NCBI GenBank assembly: GCA_011389735.1
Contig: JAABTS010000007.1
Location: 1-63,883 of the forward strand
Length of the DNA stretch: 63,883 nt
Source: Desulfobacteraceae bacterium
Lineage (GTDB): Bacteria; Desulfobacterota; Desulfobacteria; Desulfobacterales; JAABTS01
Direction: 5' to 3'
In this document: in pieces, positions 3,925-10,503 of the stretch
How the letters are laid out: the number at the start of each line of letters is the position of its first letter
Numbering within the stretch: position 1 is the stretch's first letter
Translations under genes and position numbers: made by a program
The notes under the pieces: model-generated
Told to the model about the DNA's origin: nothing
Databases searched by the model: none
What the model saw: only the letters and a program-made list of their open reading frames with translations

Positions 3925-5345
3925 GGTTCAGGCTCCAGGATCATCAGAGAAACCGCCCATTTTACCGAAGACGGGTCGAATCCCAATTGCCCGGCGGTGA
4001 AAAATTCCTCACCGGAGAGATCCGTTCCCAGACGAAATTCGGAAAGAATGGCCGATGTTTCAGGGTTCATGAATCTGACCCGCAGTTCTCCCGTCGATCC
4101 GATATCGGCTTTCCACTCAAGGCGGATGTGGGCCGGGTCGTTTTTATATGGCGCTTCCCAATGACAGGAAAGTCGGATGTCGCCGTCTTCACCGGAAAAC
4201 ACATGCACCTGCCCGGGAATTTCCGATGCCGTAACTGTCCGTCCGCTCCACATCGGCTCCCATGCCGGCGATATCCATCTGATCAAACGGCTCGACGGAG
4301 ATTTTGCACCGGGATTTTCAACGGCGTATCGGCCGGCGTTTACACGGGTTGCAGACTTTTGACAATCCTTTGTCTTCAAGTGTATATATTCCAACTGGGC
4401 CATGCGGAACAATCGCTGAATTTTTGGAGAAGATTCAGCGGCGCGGCAAAGGATTTCCTGTTCATGAGAGGGTAATTCCGATATCCGCTTTTCCGTCCCG
4501 ATCTTTTTCAACAGACGAACAACCTCGGGAGGAACTTCGTATTTCTCCAATGACGCCTCGTAATAAAGTTTCTTCATTCGCTCCAGACAATTATCCCTCG
4601 GTTTCATTTTTGTATCTCCGTTTTCGGATGATTCATAAAATCTCAACAATTCCTGCCACGATATATAGTTGGCGATGACAGCGTGTTCGGTGTCGGTTTT
4701 TTTTGCGCAAGTCACAGTCTTCATGGCTCCGACCGGTGGAAAATCCAGATCGTACTCGATTTTTACCGACCTGTCATAGTAGTGGCGCGCCAGTTCTTCC
4801 GGGACGAACACATACCATACGGAGGTGTTTGCGGATACAAGCGCCGGATTAATATAACGCGGTCTTTCGCTCCTGTGCCGATGACTCAACGAACGGTATT
4901 TTTTCCAGTAATTTCCGGCCGTATCCGCTGAAAATTCGGCGGACTCCCCATAAAAAAAGCCATTTTGCTTTTCATGGAGCAGACCGGACACCCCCGAATT
5001 CTCCGGCGGTCTTAATTCCTGCTGTTTCGCCGTGCTGAAATCCCAGAGTTGATCCTCGAGCCATCCCCTCAAAAAATGACTTTTGACCTTGCGCCGCTGT
5101 TCCTTGTAGAATCGGACAGGATATTCACCATAATCATGCGCATACTTGACGATCTCTCCCCACCCAATCGTTTCGAGTCCAAGGTCAAACGAAAACAAAA
5201 CCCGTTCTTCGTAACAATGAAGGTCAATCGATATCAAATAAAAATCTTCGTTTCTGACTCGTACTGCATAATCCCGGATCTTTTTCAGATCCTCGGACAA
5301 AAATTCATCGAAATCCATGATTTCTTCCGGGAGCCAGTATTTCAT
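3921..5345 (-). CDS. Hypothetical protein, first gene of a two-gene operon
   Basis: A 474-residue soluble-looking protein that I do not recognise. The N-terminal half is rich in Asp, Glu, Arg and aromatics. Around residues 275-330 is a helical stretch (RISELPSHEQEILCRAAESS) like the sequences near anti-sigma or FecR-type domains. The last 110 residues look beta-rich, ending in VSLMILEPEP. There is no signal peptide or membrane segment. The ATG at 5345 follows an AAAGGAT ribosome-binding site, and a TATAAT-like -10 sits about 35 bases upstream, so transcription may begin here. The stop overlaps the start of the Lon-like membrane protein by four bases, implying a joint function. Confidence 0.6.
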   Translation of the reverse strand: MKYWLPEEIMDFDEFLSEDLKKIRDYAVRVRNEDFYLISIDLHCYEERVLFSFDLGLETIGWGEIVKYAHDYGEYPVRFYKEQRRKVKSHFLRGWLEDQLWDFSTAKQQELRPPENSGVSGLLHEKQNGFFYGESAEFSADTAGNYWKKYRSLSHRHRSERPRYINPALVSANTSVWYVFVPEELARHYYDRSVKIEYDLDFPPVGAMKTVTCAKKTDTEHAVIANYISWQELLRFYESSENGDTKMKPRDNCLERMKKLYYEASLEKYEVPPEVVRLLKKIGTEKRISELPSHEQEILCRAAESSPKIQRLFRMAQLEYIHLKTKDCQKSATRVNAGRYAVENPGAKSPSSRLIRWISPAWEPMWSGRTVTASEIPGQVHVFSGEDGDIRLSCHWEAPYKNDPAHIRLEWKADIGSTGELRVRFMNPETSAILSEFRLGTDLSGEEFFTAGQLGFDPSSVKWAVSLMILEPEP

Positions 5346-5538
5346 ATTATCCTTTTAATCATCCCTTTATATTCGATTATATCATACGAAAATCTTTCTA
5401 AAAGCAGAAATGTCACACACGGATCTTTCTCCTTTCTAAAAATAGGAATTGGCGACCCAAGCGCATTTCACCTGTTTCTAAATAATACCGTCTTACGAGT
5501 TTTCCATCAAGTTTATTAATAGATCTTTTGCAGAAACT
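5346..5538. other. AT-rich intergenic stretch
   Basis: A noncoding gap between two minus-strand genes and the left edge of an AT-rich island that runs to about 8.5 kb. It contains two similar CTTTCTAAAA words but no clear element. A TATAAT on the minus strand near 5374-5379 could serve the gene ending its 5' end at 5345, although no good -35 accompanies it. Confidence 0.3.
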
Positions 5539-5853
5539 TTATTGGTTCTTACAAATGTAATATCCTCCTGCCTTTTTGCTACCCTTAAACTCGATCCTTT
5601 TTTGTTCCCTGGCTATTTTTATCCAACGTTCCAGAGTTTTTGCAGGTACTTCCAATTCTTTTTCAATTTCAGGCAGTCTTTTTCCTGGTTGTTTTGCGAT
5701 ATAATTGATCAATCGATTTGATCCCTCATTTATTCCCTCATTTATTCCCCCATTTAATCCCTCACCGGTATTTAATCCCTCACTTTCAATATCACTTAGC
5801 TTTCCAATTGGACCGCCTTTCAAACTCCGTAAAAAAAAGGTTGTAAATTTCAA
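5539..5853 (-). CDS. Small HTH protein, possibly the detached tail of an AlbA_2/RecG-like regulator
   Basis: A 104-residue frame from a TTG codon. It starts with KFTTFFLR, resembling the end of the ATPase-like domain of AlbA_2 (Schlafen-type, RecG-related) regulators. A low-complexity linker of repeated L/I-N-E-G-I-N-E-G units follows (residues 28-46), then a helix-turn-helix (KRLPEIEKELEVPAKTLERW) and a short wing, the usual C-terminus of those regulators. The N-terminal AlbA_2 domain is absent. The frame is the same as that of the primase-helicase upstream, separated only by its TGA and four codons. It is either a small DNA-binding protein or a relic; I favour a relic. Confidence 0.45.
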   Translation of the reverse strand: MKFTTFFLRSLKGGPIGKLSDIESEGLNTGEGLNGGINEGINEGSNRLINYIAKQPGKRLPEIEKELEVPAKTLERWIKIAREQKRIEFKGSKKAGGYYICKNQ

Positions 5854-5865
5854 TTTGACGCCAAC

Positions 5866-8028
5866 TCATTCTGTTTCTGCGATTTCATAGCCGATAGATT
5901 TATATCCACTGATCCGTTTTGAATACATTTTTTTCAGCATCGGAACATTTAAATCAACGTAATCGTAAATGACCACTTCCTTTTTCGTATCATTTATTCG
6001 ATGAAGTCGTCCGGCGTATTGGGATATCGTTCCTTTCCATGATATGGGCAAAGTCAGAAATAGTGTATCAAGCCTTTTTTCATCAAATCCTTCACCAATA
6101 TACTTTCCTGTTGCAAGAATCACTTTTTCAGAGTTGTCAGGAAGTTCTTCCAGTGCTTTGAAAACTGCTCTTTTCTGTTTTTTACCCATCCCTCCTTTCA
6201 AGATGATTATATTTTCTATTTTCCCTTCAAGCAAAGAATAAATCGTATCAATATGTTCTCTCCGTTCAGTCAGTACGAGCGGGAATCTCTTATTCGCTAC
6301 AACCTTTATAATATCATTCACAATACTTCGATTCCTATCCTCATCATTCGTCAGGAATGAATAAATTTCATTGATTGCCGGATATTCTTCAGGGGTGTAA
6401 TCATCCGGGAGTCGAAAGCCGGTTTTTCTGACATTCACTTTGTGTTCAAAAGGTCTGTTTGCGGCCTGTTTTCTGTCGTGAACCTTATAACGGACAGGCC
6501 CGCAATTCATAAATATGATCGGATGATGGCCGTCTTTTCGAGTCACTGTTGCAGAAAGTCCGGTTACAAATTTGGCTTTACTTTGTCTGACCGCGATTTC
6601 AAAACTCCTTGGAGAAATATGATGGCATTCATCAACAACAATATGGCCGTAATCCGCAACAATATCATCTACAACCCCTTTTCTGCTGATGCTTTGAATC
6701 GTTCCGACATCTATTTTCCCGCTTAGATTGCGTTTGCCGTCGCCGATTTGACCGATCATTTCCTGCGGTATATCAAGAAATTCGCTGAGGCGGACTATCC
6801 ATTGATCAAGCAATTGTTTGCGATGAACAAGAACCAGTGTATTCACGGATCTTTTTGCAATTAAAAACGCTGCAATAACTGTTTTTCCGAAAGCGGTTGA
6901 TGCGGATAAAACTCCCATATCATGTTGAAGCATGACTTCGACAGCATCTTTTTGCTCCGCTCTCAAAGCGCCTGTGAAGCGAAAATCGATTTTTGAACCA
7001 CTAAAACGTTCATCGACTATTTCGAAATGAATGTTCAATGAACTGAATAGCGCCTCCACATCTTCCATGCACCCTCTCGGCAGACCGATATGTTTGGGAA
7101 AATCTTCACAGCAGTGCATAATTCTGGGTATTTTGTATGTTGACCGGCGCATGGCCTGAGCTTCATAAAATTTTGGATTTTGAAACGCCGCTAATCTGAT
7201 CAACCGATTCAACAATACCGGCGGTAAATCATCTTTAGCTATATATATCTGATTTCCGATGATAAGTTTGACATGATCGGGTAAAGGACATTTAATCGGA
7301 ATATCCGGCTTTCGACCGGATGGGCTATAGCGCCAGGGAGCCGCCTCATCTTCATCGGAAATGCTGTATCGAACGCCAAGGGGGCCGCCGCTAATAGCAG
7401 CTTGCTTTACGATAATTTCTACTTCCGCAGGCTTCATTGCCCTGATAGACGAAAGGAACGCCCATTGATCCGAGTGAGGGATAAAATTCTTATCGACAAA
7501 AACGCTGTTACCGTTTTCACGAGGCCTTTTCTGCAATGGAAGCGCTATGAGATTTCCAAATCCGCCGTTGGGCATGATATCCTGGCTTGGAAAAAGCCGG
7601 TCATAAGATCTAAATCCCAAACCAGGCTGTTTTTCCATGGCCTGAGTCAACAAGTAAGATCCGAGTTGACGCGCAAGTTTTGCGGGAATCGCTTCTGCAA
7701 AGAAAATCCATACATGCCCTCCATTTCCTGATCTGGATCTCTCAAGCGACGCAGGGACATTGAATGATTCACAGACCTCTATATAGGCGACTGAATCATC
7801 CTTCCATGTGTCTTTATCGAAATCCACAGCCAAAAACCAGCATGTTTCGTCTAAAAGCAAAGGATAAACTCCGATTGTAAAATCCCCGCCAGTATTCTTT
7901 ACAACATCGATTCCTTTCAAATGCCCGGCGATAATATTATCCGAAACAGGAACAAATTTGCGGGCATCGCACTTTCCGCAAGATATTTTTTCACGTTTAC
8001 GACAGAAACCCTTAACCCACTGATTCAA
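5866..8028 (-). CDS. TOTE-type archaeo-eukaryotic primase fused to SF2 helicase, 5'-truncated
   Basis: A primase-polymerase/helicase fusion of the TOTE conflict-system family, mobile-element-linked DNA-processing proteins. The AEP domain shows the D-x-D motif (AVDFDKD, Asp69/Asp71), SGNGGH (His105) and YDRLFPSQD near 142-150. The helicase has Walker A (STAFGKT), DECH, SATVTRKDG and motif VI (QYAGRLHR). The listed start is TTG 8028, the only canonical start available, but coding sequence typical of the family (FRSLFRGREDVFPRRFESR and PEC) continues in frame upstream to about 8181 with no ATG, GTG or TTG. There an inverted-repeat element begins. The TTG also cuts off the first Cys of a probable Cys4 site (PEC, then Cys9, Cys17, Cys20). 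The gene is probably inactive or N-terminally shortened. The region is AT-rich relative to its neighbours, suggesting transfer. Confidence 0.75.
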   Translation of the reverse strand: MNQWVKGFCRKREKISCGKCDARKFVPVSDNIIAGHLKGIDVVKNTGGDFTIGVYPLLLDETCWFLAVDFDKDTWKDDSVAYIEVCESFNVPASLERSRSGNGGHVWIFFAEAIPAKLARQLGSYLLTQAMEKQPGLGFRSYDRLFPSQDIMPNGGFGNLIALPLQKRPRENGNSVFVDKNFIPHSDQWAFLSSIRAMKPAEVEIIVKQAAISGGPLGVRYSISDEDEAAPWRYSPSGRKPDIPIKCPLPDHVKLIIGNQIYIAKDDLPPVLLNRLIRLAAFQNPKFYEAQAMRRSTYKIPRIMHCCEDFPKHIGLPRGCMEDVEALFSSLNIHFEIVDERFSGSKIDFRFTGALRAEQKDAVEVMLQHDMGVLSASTAFGKTVIAAFLIAKRSVNTLVLVHRKQLLDQWIVRLSEFLDIPQEMIGQIGDGKRNLSGKIDVGTIQSISRKGVVDDIVADYGHIVVDECHHISPRSFEIAVRQSKAKFVTGLSATVTRKDGHHPIIFMNCGPVRYKVHDRKQAANRPFEHKVNVRKTGFRLPDDYTPEEYPAINEIYSFLTNDEDRNRSIVNDIIKVVANKRFPLVLTERREHIDTIYSLLEGKIENIIILKGGMGKKQKRAVFKALEELPDNSEKVILATGKYIGEGFDEKRLDTLFLTLPISWKGTISQYAGRLHRINDTKKEVVIYDYVDLNVPMLKKMYSKRISGYKSIGYEIAETE

Positions 8029-8180
8029 ACATTCGGGTTGATATCCGCTTTTTCCGGTTTTCCTGCTTTCAAAACGTCTGGGGAAAACATCTTCTCTTCC
8101 CCTGAATAGAGACCGAAAAAGGGTTATTTTCTCTTCATTGGAGGATCTTTGATTGATCGCGGAAAATTGATTTGTTGGGT

Positions 8181-8325
8181 AGTCCTAAACATGTAGTGAT
8201 TTATGACGCACTCGATGACGCAAAAATAAATCGAAGAGCGTGCGTTATATAATTTAAATTCAATATATTATGCATTTTAGCAATTTTTATGCCAAGAGTT
8301 AAAATATCACTACATGTTTAGGACT
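8181..8325. mobile_element. MITE-like element with 20-bp perfect terminal inverted repeats
   Basis: The ends are exact inverted copies: AGTCCTAAACATGTAGTGAT at 8181-8200 and its complement at 8306-8325. The 145-bp interior is AT-rich and has no open frame. No obvious target duplication flanks it (GGGT on the left, GCCG on the right). The left end abuts the broken 5' end of the primase-helicase frame, so insertion or a deletion anchored here removed that gene's start. Confidence 0.7.
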
Positions 8326-8531
8326 GCCGACTTGTGTGTTTCGGATCGCACCCGAAGAATTAAAAAACAACCGGCGGGAAGATTTCGGAACCATGTTGTA
8401 TTGACTTATGTATTCATTATGAAATATTATGGGTCATTCAATAGCAGGATAGTGCAAATAATCGATTATTTTAAAACGCTGCCGTTTCAAAACAATTCGC
8501 AGCGTTAATGGTTGTTTTAGGGTGAATTCAA
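8326..8531. other. Upstream region of the Ser/Thr kinase
   Basis: Noncoding between the inverted-repeat element and the kinase gene. Apart from the sigma-70-like promoter at 8401-8430 I see no further structure, and no leftover N-terminal sequence of the primase-helicase on the minus strand. Confidence 0.4.
8401..8430 (+). promoter_or_regulatory. Sigma-70-like promoter for the kinase gene
   Basis: TTGACT at 8401-8406, an 18-base spacer, and TATTAT at 8425-8430. It points at the kinase gene whose ATG is at 8532, giving a leader of about 95 bases. Confidence 0.5.
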
Positions 8532-10442
8532 ATGAGCGGATCTTCGGAGAAAACACAAAAGCCCCCCGGGAACAGCGGGGAGACGATCTTGTTAACAAGA
8601 AAGGACGTCGAAACAAATTCCAGCACCATCGCATTAAATGATCGTCAACCAATTTCCGGTCATGCGCCTGAGGCGACCATTATGATGGAAAGCGCTGAAT
8701 ACAGAGCAACAGGTGCTTCCGGCCGAAATATGGAAGAAACCGTATCTATTCCATTGCATCCTCCAGAACAGACGGAAACCCCTCTAAAACGAAAACCCTC
8801 GAAAAACGTTCAAAAAGCTACGCGGCTCGAAAAGGATTATTTCGACACCATTGTTCGAAATGATAGCAAGGGACAGCGTTATAAATTCATTGAAGAAATC
8901 GTGACCGGCGGCATGGGGGCCATATTCAAGGTGATAGACAGCGATCTTCAGCGGGCGACCGCCATGAAGGTCATTTTGCCGAATTTCAGAAACGAAAAAG
9001 ATACGTTGGATGATTTTGTCACGGAGGCCAAAATAACCGGTTTTTTGGAGCATCCGAATATCATTCCGGTTCATGAACTGGGGCTTATGAATTCGACCGG
9101 CCTTTATTTTACCATGAAACTGGCTCAAGGCGAGCCGTTGAATTCCGTGCTGGATAAGCTCAAACGGGGTGATCCGGCGTATCTCGAAAAATACAATACC
9201 TTCCATTTATTGCGGATATTCAGCAAAGTATGCGATGCGCTGGCGTTCGCTCATTCCAAATCGTTCATTCATCAGGATATCAAGCCGCATAACATCATGA
9301 TCGGGCTTTACGGCGAGGTGTTACTAATGGATTGGGGGCTGGGCAGGCATATCGGCGATCCTGAAAATGAATCCGATCCTGTGCTTAAAGAAATTTTGAT
9401 GAATATCAAAACATCGTCAGTGGCCAAGGAAGACATAATCAAAGGGTCTCCGCCTTACATGTCCCCGGAACAAACCAAAGGCGATCCGAACCTTCTGGAT
9501 GAGCGCAGTGATATATTTTTGCTGGGAGCGACCTTGTACCATATGTTCACTTTGCATCCTCCGTACATGGCCAGGGATATTTACGAAATATTGTATAAAG
9601 CTGAAAATTGTGATTTTGTTCCGCCGGAAGACCGTAGTCCGGCGAGTCAGATTCCCCGGGAAATTTGCCGTATCATCAAAAAAGCAATGGCGGCGGATAA
9701 GGCGGATCGTTATCAGTGTGTTACGGAATTTGCGAGCGATGTGGACGATGTTATTTCAGGAAAATGGACACAGGAAGAAAAGAAATTTTTTCCACCCGGG
9801 AAATTATTGATGCAGGAAGGCGAGACCGGCGATGAAGCATATCTGATCATAAAAGGAAAGGTGGAGGTTTTCAAAGAGCACCAGGATAAAAAAATGGTGC
9901 TTGGCTCCTTGGGTGAAGGGGATATCGTGGGAGAGATGGCGTTGATCACGCAAGATCCTAGATCCGCCAGCGTTGCCGCTGTCGAGCCTACGGAGACGGC
10001 TGTCTTGACAAAGCGGATTTTATCTCAAAATATCGAAAAACTTCCTCCTTTCATGGGAAAAATTGTTTCCACGTTGACCGAGCGTTTACAAGCCGCCAAC
10101 CGGCTGATTAATCCACATTCCATGTCGGACAGCACCTATTTTATTCTGGAACAGCTCCGGCTCATCTTTAAAGACAAATCCATCAATAAAATCAAGGACA
10201 TCAACATCCCTTTGCATGTTCTGACGCGTGAAATATCTGATAATCTGGGCATTCCAGAATCAAAAGTGAGCCGGGCTCTCAAAAAGGCGCATACGCAAAA
10301 CTATATTATTATCGAACAGTCCAAAGTCCGGATTCCAAATATAGCGGAACTGACTCAATACACCCGGTTCGGCAAGCTGATCACCCGTCTTCCGCCTGAA
10401 AGGCAGGAAGTGGTTTTTGACAGCATCCGGAAACAGCGATAA
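8532..10442 (+). CDS. Ser/Thr protein kinase with cyclic-nucleotide-binding and winged-helix domains
   Basis: A 636-residue three-part regulator. Residues 1-115 are disordered and rich in Thr and Pro. The Hanks-type kinase spans about 118-410: glycine loop GGMGAIFKV, Lys146, Glu165, HQDIKPHN (Asp249, Asn254), DWG in place of DFG (Asp267), and GSPPYMSPEQ. A cNMP-binding domain covers about 418-520, with a phosphate-binding-cassette-like VGEMALITQDPRSAS. The C-terminus has a winged helix (about 535-600, LTREISDNLGIPESKVSRA), as in CRP-type regulators. It is cytosolic with no membrane segment. A cyclic nucleotide may gate the kinase and the kinase or ligand may gate DNA binding. ATG 8532 follows a GGGTGA site. 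Confidence 0.85.
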   Translation: MSGSSEKTQKPPGNSGETILLTRKDVETNSSTIALNDRQPISGHAPEATIMMESAEYRATGASGRNMEETVSIPLHPPEQTETPLKRKPSKNVQKATRLEKDYFDTIVRNDSKGQRYKFIEEIVTGGMGAIFKVIDSDLQRATAMKVILPNFRNEKDTLDDFVTEAKITGFLEHPNIIPVHELGLMNSTGLYFTMKLAQGEPLNSVLDKLKRGDPAYLEKYNTFHLLRIFSKVCDALAFAHSKSFIHQDIKPHNIMIGLYGEVLLMDWGLGRHIGDPENESDPVLKEILMNIKTSSVAKEDIIKGSPPYMSPEQTKGDPNLLDERSDIFLLGATLYHMFTLHPPYMARDIYEILYKAENCDFVPPEDRSPASQIPREICRIIKKAMAADKADRYQCVTEFASDVDDVISGKWTQEEKKFFPPGKLLMQEGETGDEAYLIIKGKVEVFKEHQDKKMVLGSLGEGDIVGEMALITQDPRSASVAAVEPTETAVLTKRILSQNIEKLPPFMGKIVSTLTERLQAANRLINPHSMSDSTYFILEQLRLIFKDKSINKIKDINIPLHVLTREISDNLGIPESKVSRALKKAHTQNYIIIEQSKVRIPNIAELTQYTRFGKLITRLPPERQEVVFDSIRKQR

Positions 10443-10503
10443 CCCGATGTTCGGCAAGATTTTGAGTTTCGGCGCCGGTTTCGTCGAATGATTGTTTTTG
10501 AAA

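Follow-up and report, generated by a model that had tools for sequence, protein, structure and literature searches.

A start-less primase-helicase frame at the edge of an IS1-type MITE, probably truncated by an element-associated deletion

On a 63,883-nucleotide contig of a Desulfobacteraceae bacterium (the stretch analysed as a whole, here called the window), a long minus-strand frame encoding a primase-helicase can be read up to the end of a short repeated element without a start codon being met. This raises the question of whether the gene was broken at the element, and by what event, or whether a protein is still made from it by an unusual route. The frame and its upstream part comprise the following features:

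5869..8184, minus strand: start-less open frame with an AEP-TOTE primase domain and a superfamily-2 helicase; stop codon at 5866-5868
8026..8028, minus strand: TTG 8028 (residue 53), ahead of which the frame has no ATG, GTG or TTG
8029..8184, minus strand: coding remnant upstream of TTG 8028, with about 17 linker residues, the LFRGRED motif and C52
8124..8192, minus strand: 22-codon frame with its ATG inside an inverted repeat, stopping out of frame within the TOTE linker

From position 8184 to its stop the frame runs through 772 codons, interrupted by neither a stop nor a frameshift. The AEP-TOTE profile PF22548 covers residues 18-256 with 322 bits against a cut-off of 27 (E 2.5e-96; profile positions 1-228 of 230), ResIII, a superfamily-2 helicase domain, lies above the Pfam cut-off at residues 407-548, and Helicase_C at residues 631-731 falls slightly under it (21.7 versus 23.5 bits). 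By these sequence matches, the predicted protein belongs to the AEP-TOTE domain family. Proteins combining PF22548 with a C-terminal superfamily-2 helicase are annotated on plasmids as 'DEAD/DEAH box helicase'; unlike these relatives, the window frame has no usable start codon and lacks an N-terminal segment of about 45 codons. The primase and helicase regions are complete and share 45-66% identity with the 94 relatives that were compared, i.e., 80 of 109 candidate loci from public genomes and 14 loci of same-order genomes.

Sequence searches identify XPB-type helicases and a CRISPR-associated Prim-Pol as relatives with solved structures. An AlphaFold2 model of residues 1-330, built from the window sequence and 30 relatives, has a mean pLDDT of 81, and the top Foldseek match of the predicted primase domain is the CAPP Prim-Pol of Marinitoga sp. 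1137 (PDB codes 7nqd, 7nqe, 7nqf and 7p9j; E 8e-15; TM-score on the target 0.79-0.82). Across its chains the identity over the Prim-Pol domain is only 22-24%. The same protein is matched by sequence (E 3e-11). Residues D121, D123 and H157, which we take to be catalytic residues of the primase domain, are, with others, invariant in the 31 rows and kept in the window frame.

The original prediction held that a conserved N-terminus can still be read upstream of TTG 8028, the only usable start, and that initiation there would cost one cysteine of a probable Cys4 zinc site; all of this stands. The frame is open to 8184 without any ATG, GTG or TTG before TTG 8028, and the translated remnant, DYPTNQFSAINQRSSNEEKITLFRSLFRGREDVFPRRFESRKTGKSGYQPEC, belongs to the TOTE family on the comparison that had been proposed for it, being covered by PF22548 from residue 18 on. 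Its residues F27, G29, R30, G47 and C52 are each conserved without exception (1.00) among the other 80 aligned rows, and all five would be dropped if translation began at TTG 8028. Four conserved cysteines begin with C52, the others being C61, C69 and C72 (0.97, 0.96 and 0.97 in the same rows), and the four form a probable Cys4 zinc site, to which we infer that zinc binds. In the AlphaFold2 model, residues 16-50 are predicted with high confidence as a helix (16-26) and two strands (35-39 and 46-50), in blocks with pLDDT 87-95, which together with the fold match to CAPP indicates that the residues N-terminal to TTG 8028 belong to the folded domain. A gene caller would give a 720-residue protein from TTG 8028, without the invariant cysteine and without part of the primase fold. 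By eye, neither TTG 8028 nor the ATC and ATA codons in the linker are preceded by a recognisable ribosome-binding site, and the 22-codon frame at 8124..8192 is probably due to chance.

The relatives show where such a gene normally starts. Matches to five of the 94 lie solely downstream of LFRGRED, leaving 89 informative loci, and in 88 of these an in-frame ATG, GTG or TTG is found upstream of the motif, so that a start codon of its own ahead of the domain, absent from the window frame, is a property of all but one; the exception, L072, is cut by a contig end. The possibility that family members simply begin at the position of TTG 8028, which would have made the frame unremarkable, does not agree with these data. 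An in-frame start codon lies 55-95 codons before LFRGRED in 83 of the 89 loci, and by our own arithmetic the three annotated plasmid homologues examined all start upstream of the motif, by about 72, 72 and 85 codons. The window frame retains 25 codons before LFRGRED, of which about 17 resemble the family linker by eye, and set against the upstream starts of the relatives this means that the start codon and roughly 45 codons are missing. The proposal that the 5′ end was lost at the element thus holds in that the start is gone at the element end, and has to be extended in that the loss goes beyond the start codon. Four relatives (L026, L030, L061 and L093) lack the long N-terminus and possess only a short leader, with a start 17-21 codons before the motif; since they start in the linker, loss of the N-terminal segment alone need not kill the protein.

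The missing segment was sought with 72 segments from the N-termini of relatives, 69 being in the right frame. As a positive control, 49 of the 72 reached the N-terminus of locus L092. Against window positions 8178-10500 there is no credible match (best E 0.008, inside the kinase gene), and against the available flanks of the other 151-bp copies of the element (L002-L004) the best match is chance-like for 72 queries (E 0.004). A 102-residue N-terminal query from L092, searched against the whole assembly, matches the TOTE locus only from query residue 55 on and did not locate the missing part elsewhere. It gave a weaker match (E 7.6e-4, residues 63-100) to a second TOTE-like frame on contig C53, which is not the missing part; a match on contig C23 (E 0.18, residues 18-95) was rejected, being a different coiled-coil protein of 195 codons, and the 3.2-kb C23 locus contains no element end within 5 mismatches. 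Among 57 other genomes, all of the same order only, no element-free relative with the same locus was found.

The element and the gene beyond it are arranged as follows:

8178..8328, no strand: IS1-type MITE, non-coding, 151 bp, without a target-site duplication in the window copy
8178..8200, plus strand: terminal inverted repeat on the TOTE side
8306..8328, minus strand: terminal inverted repeat on the kinase side, one mismatch relative to the other end
8267..8295, minus strand: promoter-like site (TTGGCA, 17 nt, CATAAT; 10/12), directed toward the TOTE frame, a consensus match only
8532..10442, plus strand: apparently intact, divergent neighbour encoding a Ser/Thr protein kinase with a cNMP-binding domain

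The element had been described as 145 bp long with 20-bp inverted ends; its actual length is 151 bp, and its ends are 23 bp long and agree at 22 of 23 positions. Two matches to the 20-base end sequence are found in the window, compared with none in 100 shuffles (≤3 mismatches). The genome carries about three copies, i.e., in addition to the window copy, a full copy with 3 differences with which contig C422 ends and two half copies at contig ends (C113 and C374), and a related 127-bp subfamily is represented by two copies on contig C9 and one on contig C141. No frame of at least 60 codons lies within the element. Its single-stranded form has a much stronger predicted fold than shuffled sequences (z -6.55), which the inverted ends by themselves would lead one to expect, and no known RNA family reaches its gathering score in 5300-10500. 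A promoter scan of 7900-8700 gives 5 sites compared with 2.3 (sd 1.3) in shuffles, so that a single promoter-like site means little.

Its family can be assigned from its ends. Of 389 genomes of the order, 10, among them the own genome, contain the end consensus GGTAGTSCYMAACAKGTAGTG, and a reversed control pattern is found in none of these. In one of the ten (G200, L124), an InsA-like N-terminus (PF03811, 26.4 bits against a cut-off of 26.1) follows the element end at a distance of about 107 bp. Among 19 loci with the IS1 transposase domain PF03400, taken from four of the ten genomes, six have, next to the transposase, an end that differs from the MITE consensus at 2-5 of 21 bases (L141 and L145 in G056, L142 in G200, and L144, L147 and L155 in G167); L149 has a single, more distant end, and the remaining loci have no end within 6 mismatches, save for a separate 233-bp element in L151. 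Two of the three complete IS pairs in G167 are bordered by exact 8-bp duplications (8/8). Exact 8-bp duplications also flank four of the 13 MITE copies for which both flanks are available (L121, L127, L128 and L130), and a further one flanks the MITE copy in L151, amounting to five of ten testable copies in the same-order genomes (four of nine plus L151) compared with none of four in the own genome (the window copy, two on C9 and one on C141). Copies without a duplication agree at 2 to 5 of 8 flanking positions, the window copy at 3, and in other genomes comprise L119, L120, L122, L123 and L126.

Because the ends are shared with transposase-bearing IS1 loci and related copies have 8-bp duplications, the element is, to judge by its sequence, an IS1-derived MITE, the window copy being one without a duplication; family membership rests on the ends, and a lost duplication does not exclude this copy. 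Like IS1-family elements and their MITEs it has the ends GGTAGT...GTAGTG common to the PF03400 loci, and unlike IS1-family insertion sequences it has neither a transposase nor, in the window, a duplication. PF03400 has no match in the own genome, in which the mobilising enzyme is therefore either lacking or not assembled. The MITE treated in the available part of PMC11448079 is of the ISL3 type. A family of IS1-type MITEs of 91-327 bp with shared ends and 8-bp duplications may help to annotate related genomes.

Two other identities for the element were considered. An integron attC site, an idea arising from genes cut at elements, was dropped because by eye the ends are unlike what we take to be the attC core consensus, and because the exact 8-bp duplications and the IS1 ends agree with a MITE. 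An invertible promoter, suggested by a promoter-like site between inverted repeats, is disfavoured by the common interior of copies located at unrelated loci and by the target duplications of related copies.

What happened at the 5′ end is constrained by both sides of the element. A simple insertion into the gene is rejected, as the N-terminal segment is not found beyond the element and there is no duplication; the former calls for insertion combined with deletion or rearrangement, and the latter is expected for a deletion beside an element, not for simple insertion. We consider it probable that the gene is a 5′-truncated, recently inactivated primase-helicase copy produced by an element-associated deletion. 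An IS1-type MITE would have landed in or near the 5′ end of the gene, and a later deletion would have run outward from the kinase-side end of the MITE, removing the start codon along with some 45 codons of the N-terminus and one of the two copies of the 8-bp target duplication, and leaving the element at the deletion junction. The order of these events, the deletion mechanism and the absence of a functional protein are what we infer from the present arrangement. The signature of an IS-adjacent deletion is found in the window, i.e., a flank missing on one side, no duplication and the element at the junction. In the portion of PMC11708052 available, duplications accompany 69 of 69 ordinary IS movements and none of 14 movements with a large deletion, all 14 of which an insertion with a subsequent adjacent deletion can explain. 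The window resembles those 14 cases in having the element at the junction and no duplication, however, that study, as far as covered here, concerns IS150 in experimental evolution, whereas the window event is deduced from one genome. The missing duplication is suggestive only as evidence for rearrangement, since some of the five duplication-less copies elsewhere and the three more in the own genome may be old. A transposon breaking a gene is a known process and an ordinary outcome of transposon activity, of which the window provides a new example.

The 5′ end might instead have been lost by another event, either recombination between copies of the element or an unrelated earlier deletion, with the element arriving at the junction secondarily. 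Recombination predicts what is seen in the own genome, several copies with duplications in none of the four that can be judged; nevertheless, a swapped duplication partner is not seen by eye among the known flanks, and for lack of a partner junction recombination is ranked below adjacent deletion. An unrelated earlier deletion would not predict that coding sequence reaches the element end, and we regard loss by any such other event as rather unlikely. The junction could also be an artefact, the contig having been misjoined through the repeated element while the true 5′ end resides on sequence that is unassembled or has gone unrecognised. Over positions 1-120, numbered from the TOTE side, the element sequence is the same in every copy that covers them. 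Contig C422 stops precisely where the element does, C113 and C374 break off within it, and the assembly consists of 477 contigs; the identical stretch and the contig breaks at the element leave room for a misjoin. Against this, none of the three available sequences flanking a 151-bp copy on its kinase side (window, C422 and C374) contains the N-terminus, the genome search did not recover it at another place, by eye an 8-bp duplication results from no combination of known flanks, and a duplication-less copy (L123 of G167) is present in a genome of nine contigs, so that such copies are not merely an effect of fragmented assemblies. A misjoin is on balance distinctly unlikely, and the deletion beside the element is retained as the preferred explanation.

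Whether the truncated gene is silent is a separate question. The original prediction saw all downstream motifs as intact and offered either recent inactivation or a nonstandard start; the conserved core is indeed kept, and the two options remain the right pair, with the first favoured. In an 81-row alignment, from which 14 of 95 rows were omitted as partial or interrupted, the window frame departs at one of 148 near-invariant columns (at least 97.5% in the other rows), the median row also at one and the range being 0 to 20. Decay at conserved columns in excess of other rows is thereby rejected; R64, between the second and third cysteine, is an insertion found in no other row. The single departure and the absence of stops imply that selection acted until recently, and on sequence grounds either the break would be recent or some product may still be made. 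A pseudogene is preferred because every plausible start is weak and the frame at 5542-5853 beside it looks like a gene remnant.

Expression could nevertheless continue from the promoter-like site in the element, with initiation at a non-canonical linker codon (ATC or ATA, for example) or, with low efficiency, at TTG 8028. The near-perfect conservation, the fully open frame, the 10/12 promoter-like site facing the gene and the natural relatives that start in the linker are in favour of this; however, the candidate codons are devoid of a recognisable ribosome-binding site, TTG 8028 sacrifices the invariant residues, C52 and the confidently predicted helix and strands, one promoter-like site means little in view of the scan, and conservation lasts for some time after inactivation. 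We judge continued expression to be unlikely. It would be highly improbable that the element itself supplies the 5′ end, with an internal promoter, initiation at ATG 8192 and a -1 slip of some ribosomes on AAAA before the out-of-frame stop (8130-8124) into the TOTE frame; were this so, the product would be a primase-helicase with an element-derived N-terminus. With recent inactivation as the preferred reading, the locus is a clear snapshot of a small non-autonomous transposon removing the front of a probable defence gene, the remaining 2.3 kb being pristine.

The remnant beside the frame is:

5542..5853, minus strand: fragment immediately following the TOTE frame, apparently the C-terminal part of an ATP-binding protein, with residues 48-100 matched

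These residues, 51% of the fragment, share 51% identity with plasmid proteins annotated as ATP-binding, and in the one plasmid record examined the match is at the end of a 154-residue protein. Among the loci compared, the fragment matches only itself. On an Acinetobacter plasmid, a related protein of 154 residues is annotated next to resistance genes. Recurrent neighbours of the 94 relatives are mostly overlapping-frame noise, with one cluster in 12 loci that resembles ATP-binding AlbA_2-type proteins.

A TOTE conflict system, in the definition quoted in the accessible part of PMC12458937, comprises TPR, OB, TBP and Effector. Since a Pfam scan of seven neighbouring frames (between 1492 and 16832) detects no TPR, OB-fold or TBP domain, membership of the window gene in such a system is not shown. 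NCBIfam and PADLOC searches return nothing beyond sub-threshold or generic helicase and PrimPol matches. Homologues are common on plasmids, with 239 of 72,556 records, 91 of them covering at least 80% of the query. None of the 1303 phage records with a match covers 80% of the query, and in the best 10 of these the helicase half alone is matched, at 25-26% identity. The own genome has a second AEP-TOTE-like frame of 591 codons (G000:C53:2266-2913; L009 and L010; PF22548 E 8.7e-34), which is only distantly similar to the window frame.

Several other genes or fragments abut members of the element family. The C422 copy (L002, G000:C422:33459-35109, element at 1501-1651), at which the contig ends, is abutted by the body of a phage-type integrase (PF00589), as read from translations. 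Integrases of this kind presumably have an N-terminal domain as a rule, and the frame seemingly has none. On contig C9 (L006, element at 1501-1627), a short gene with an in-frame stop, which we take to resemble DUF5615-type toxins, ends at a 127-bp copy with no continuation visible by eye. An IS66-like fragment, below cut-off and read from translations, abuts a family element in L126, and in L122 (G372, element at 1397-1521) a gene fragment reads into a related element, its last residues being element-encoded.
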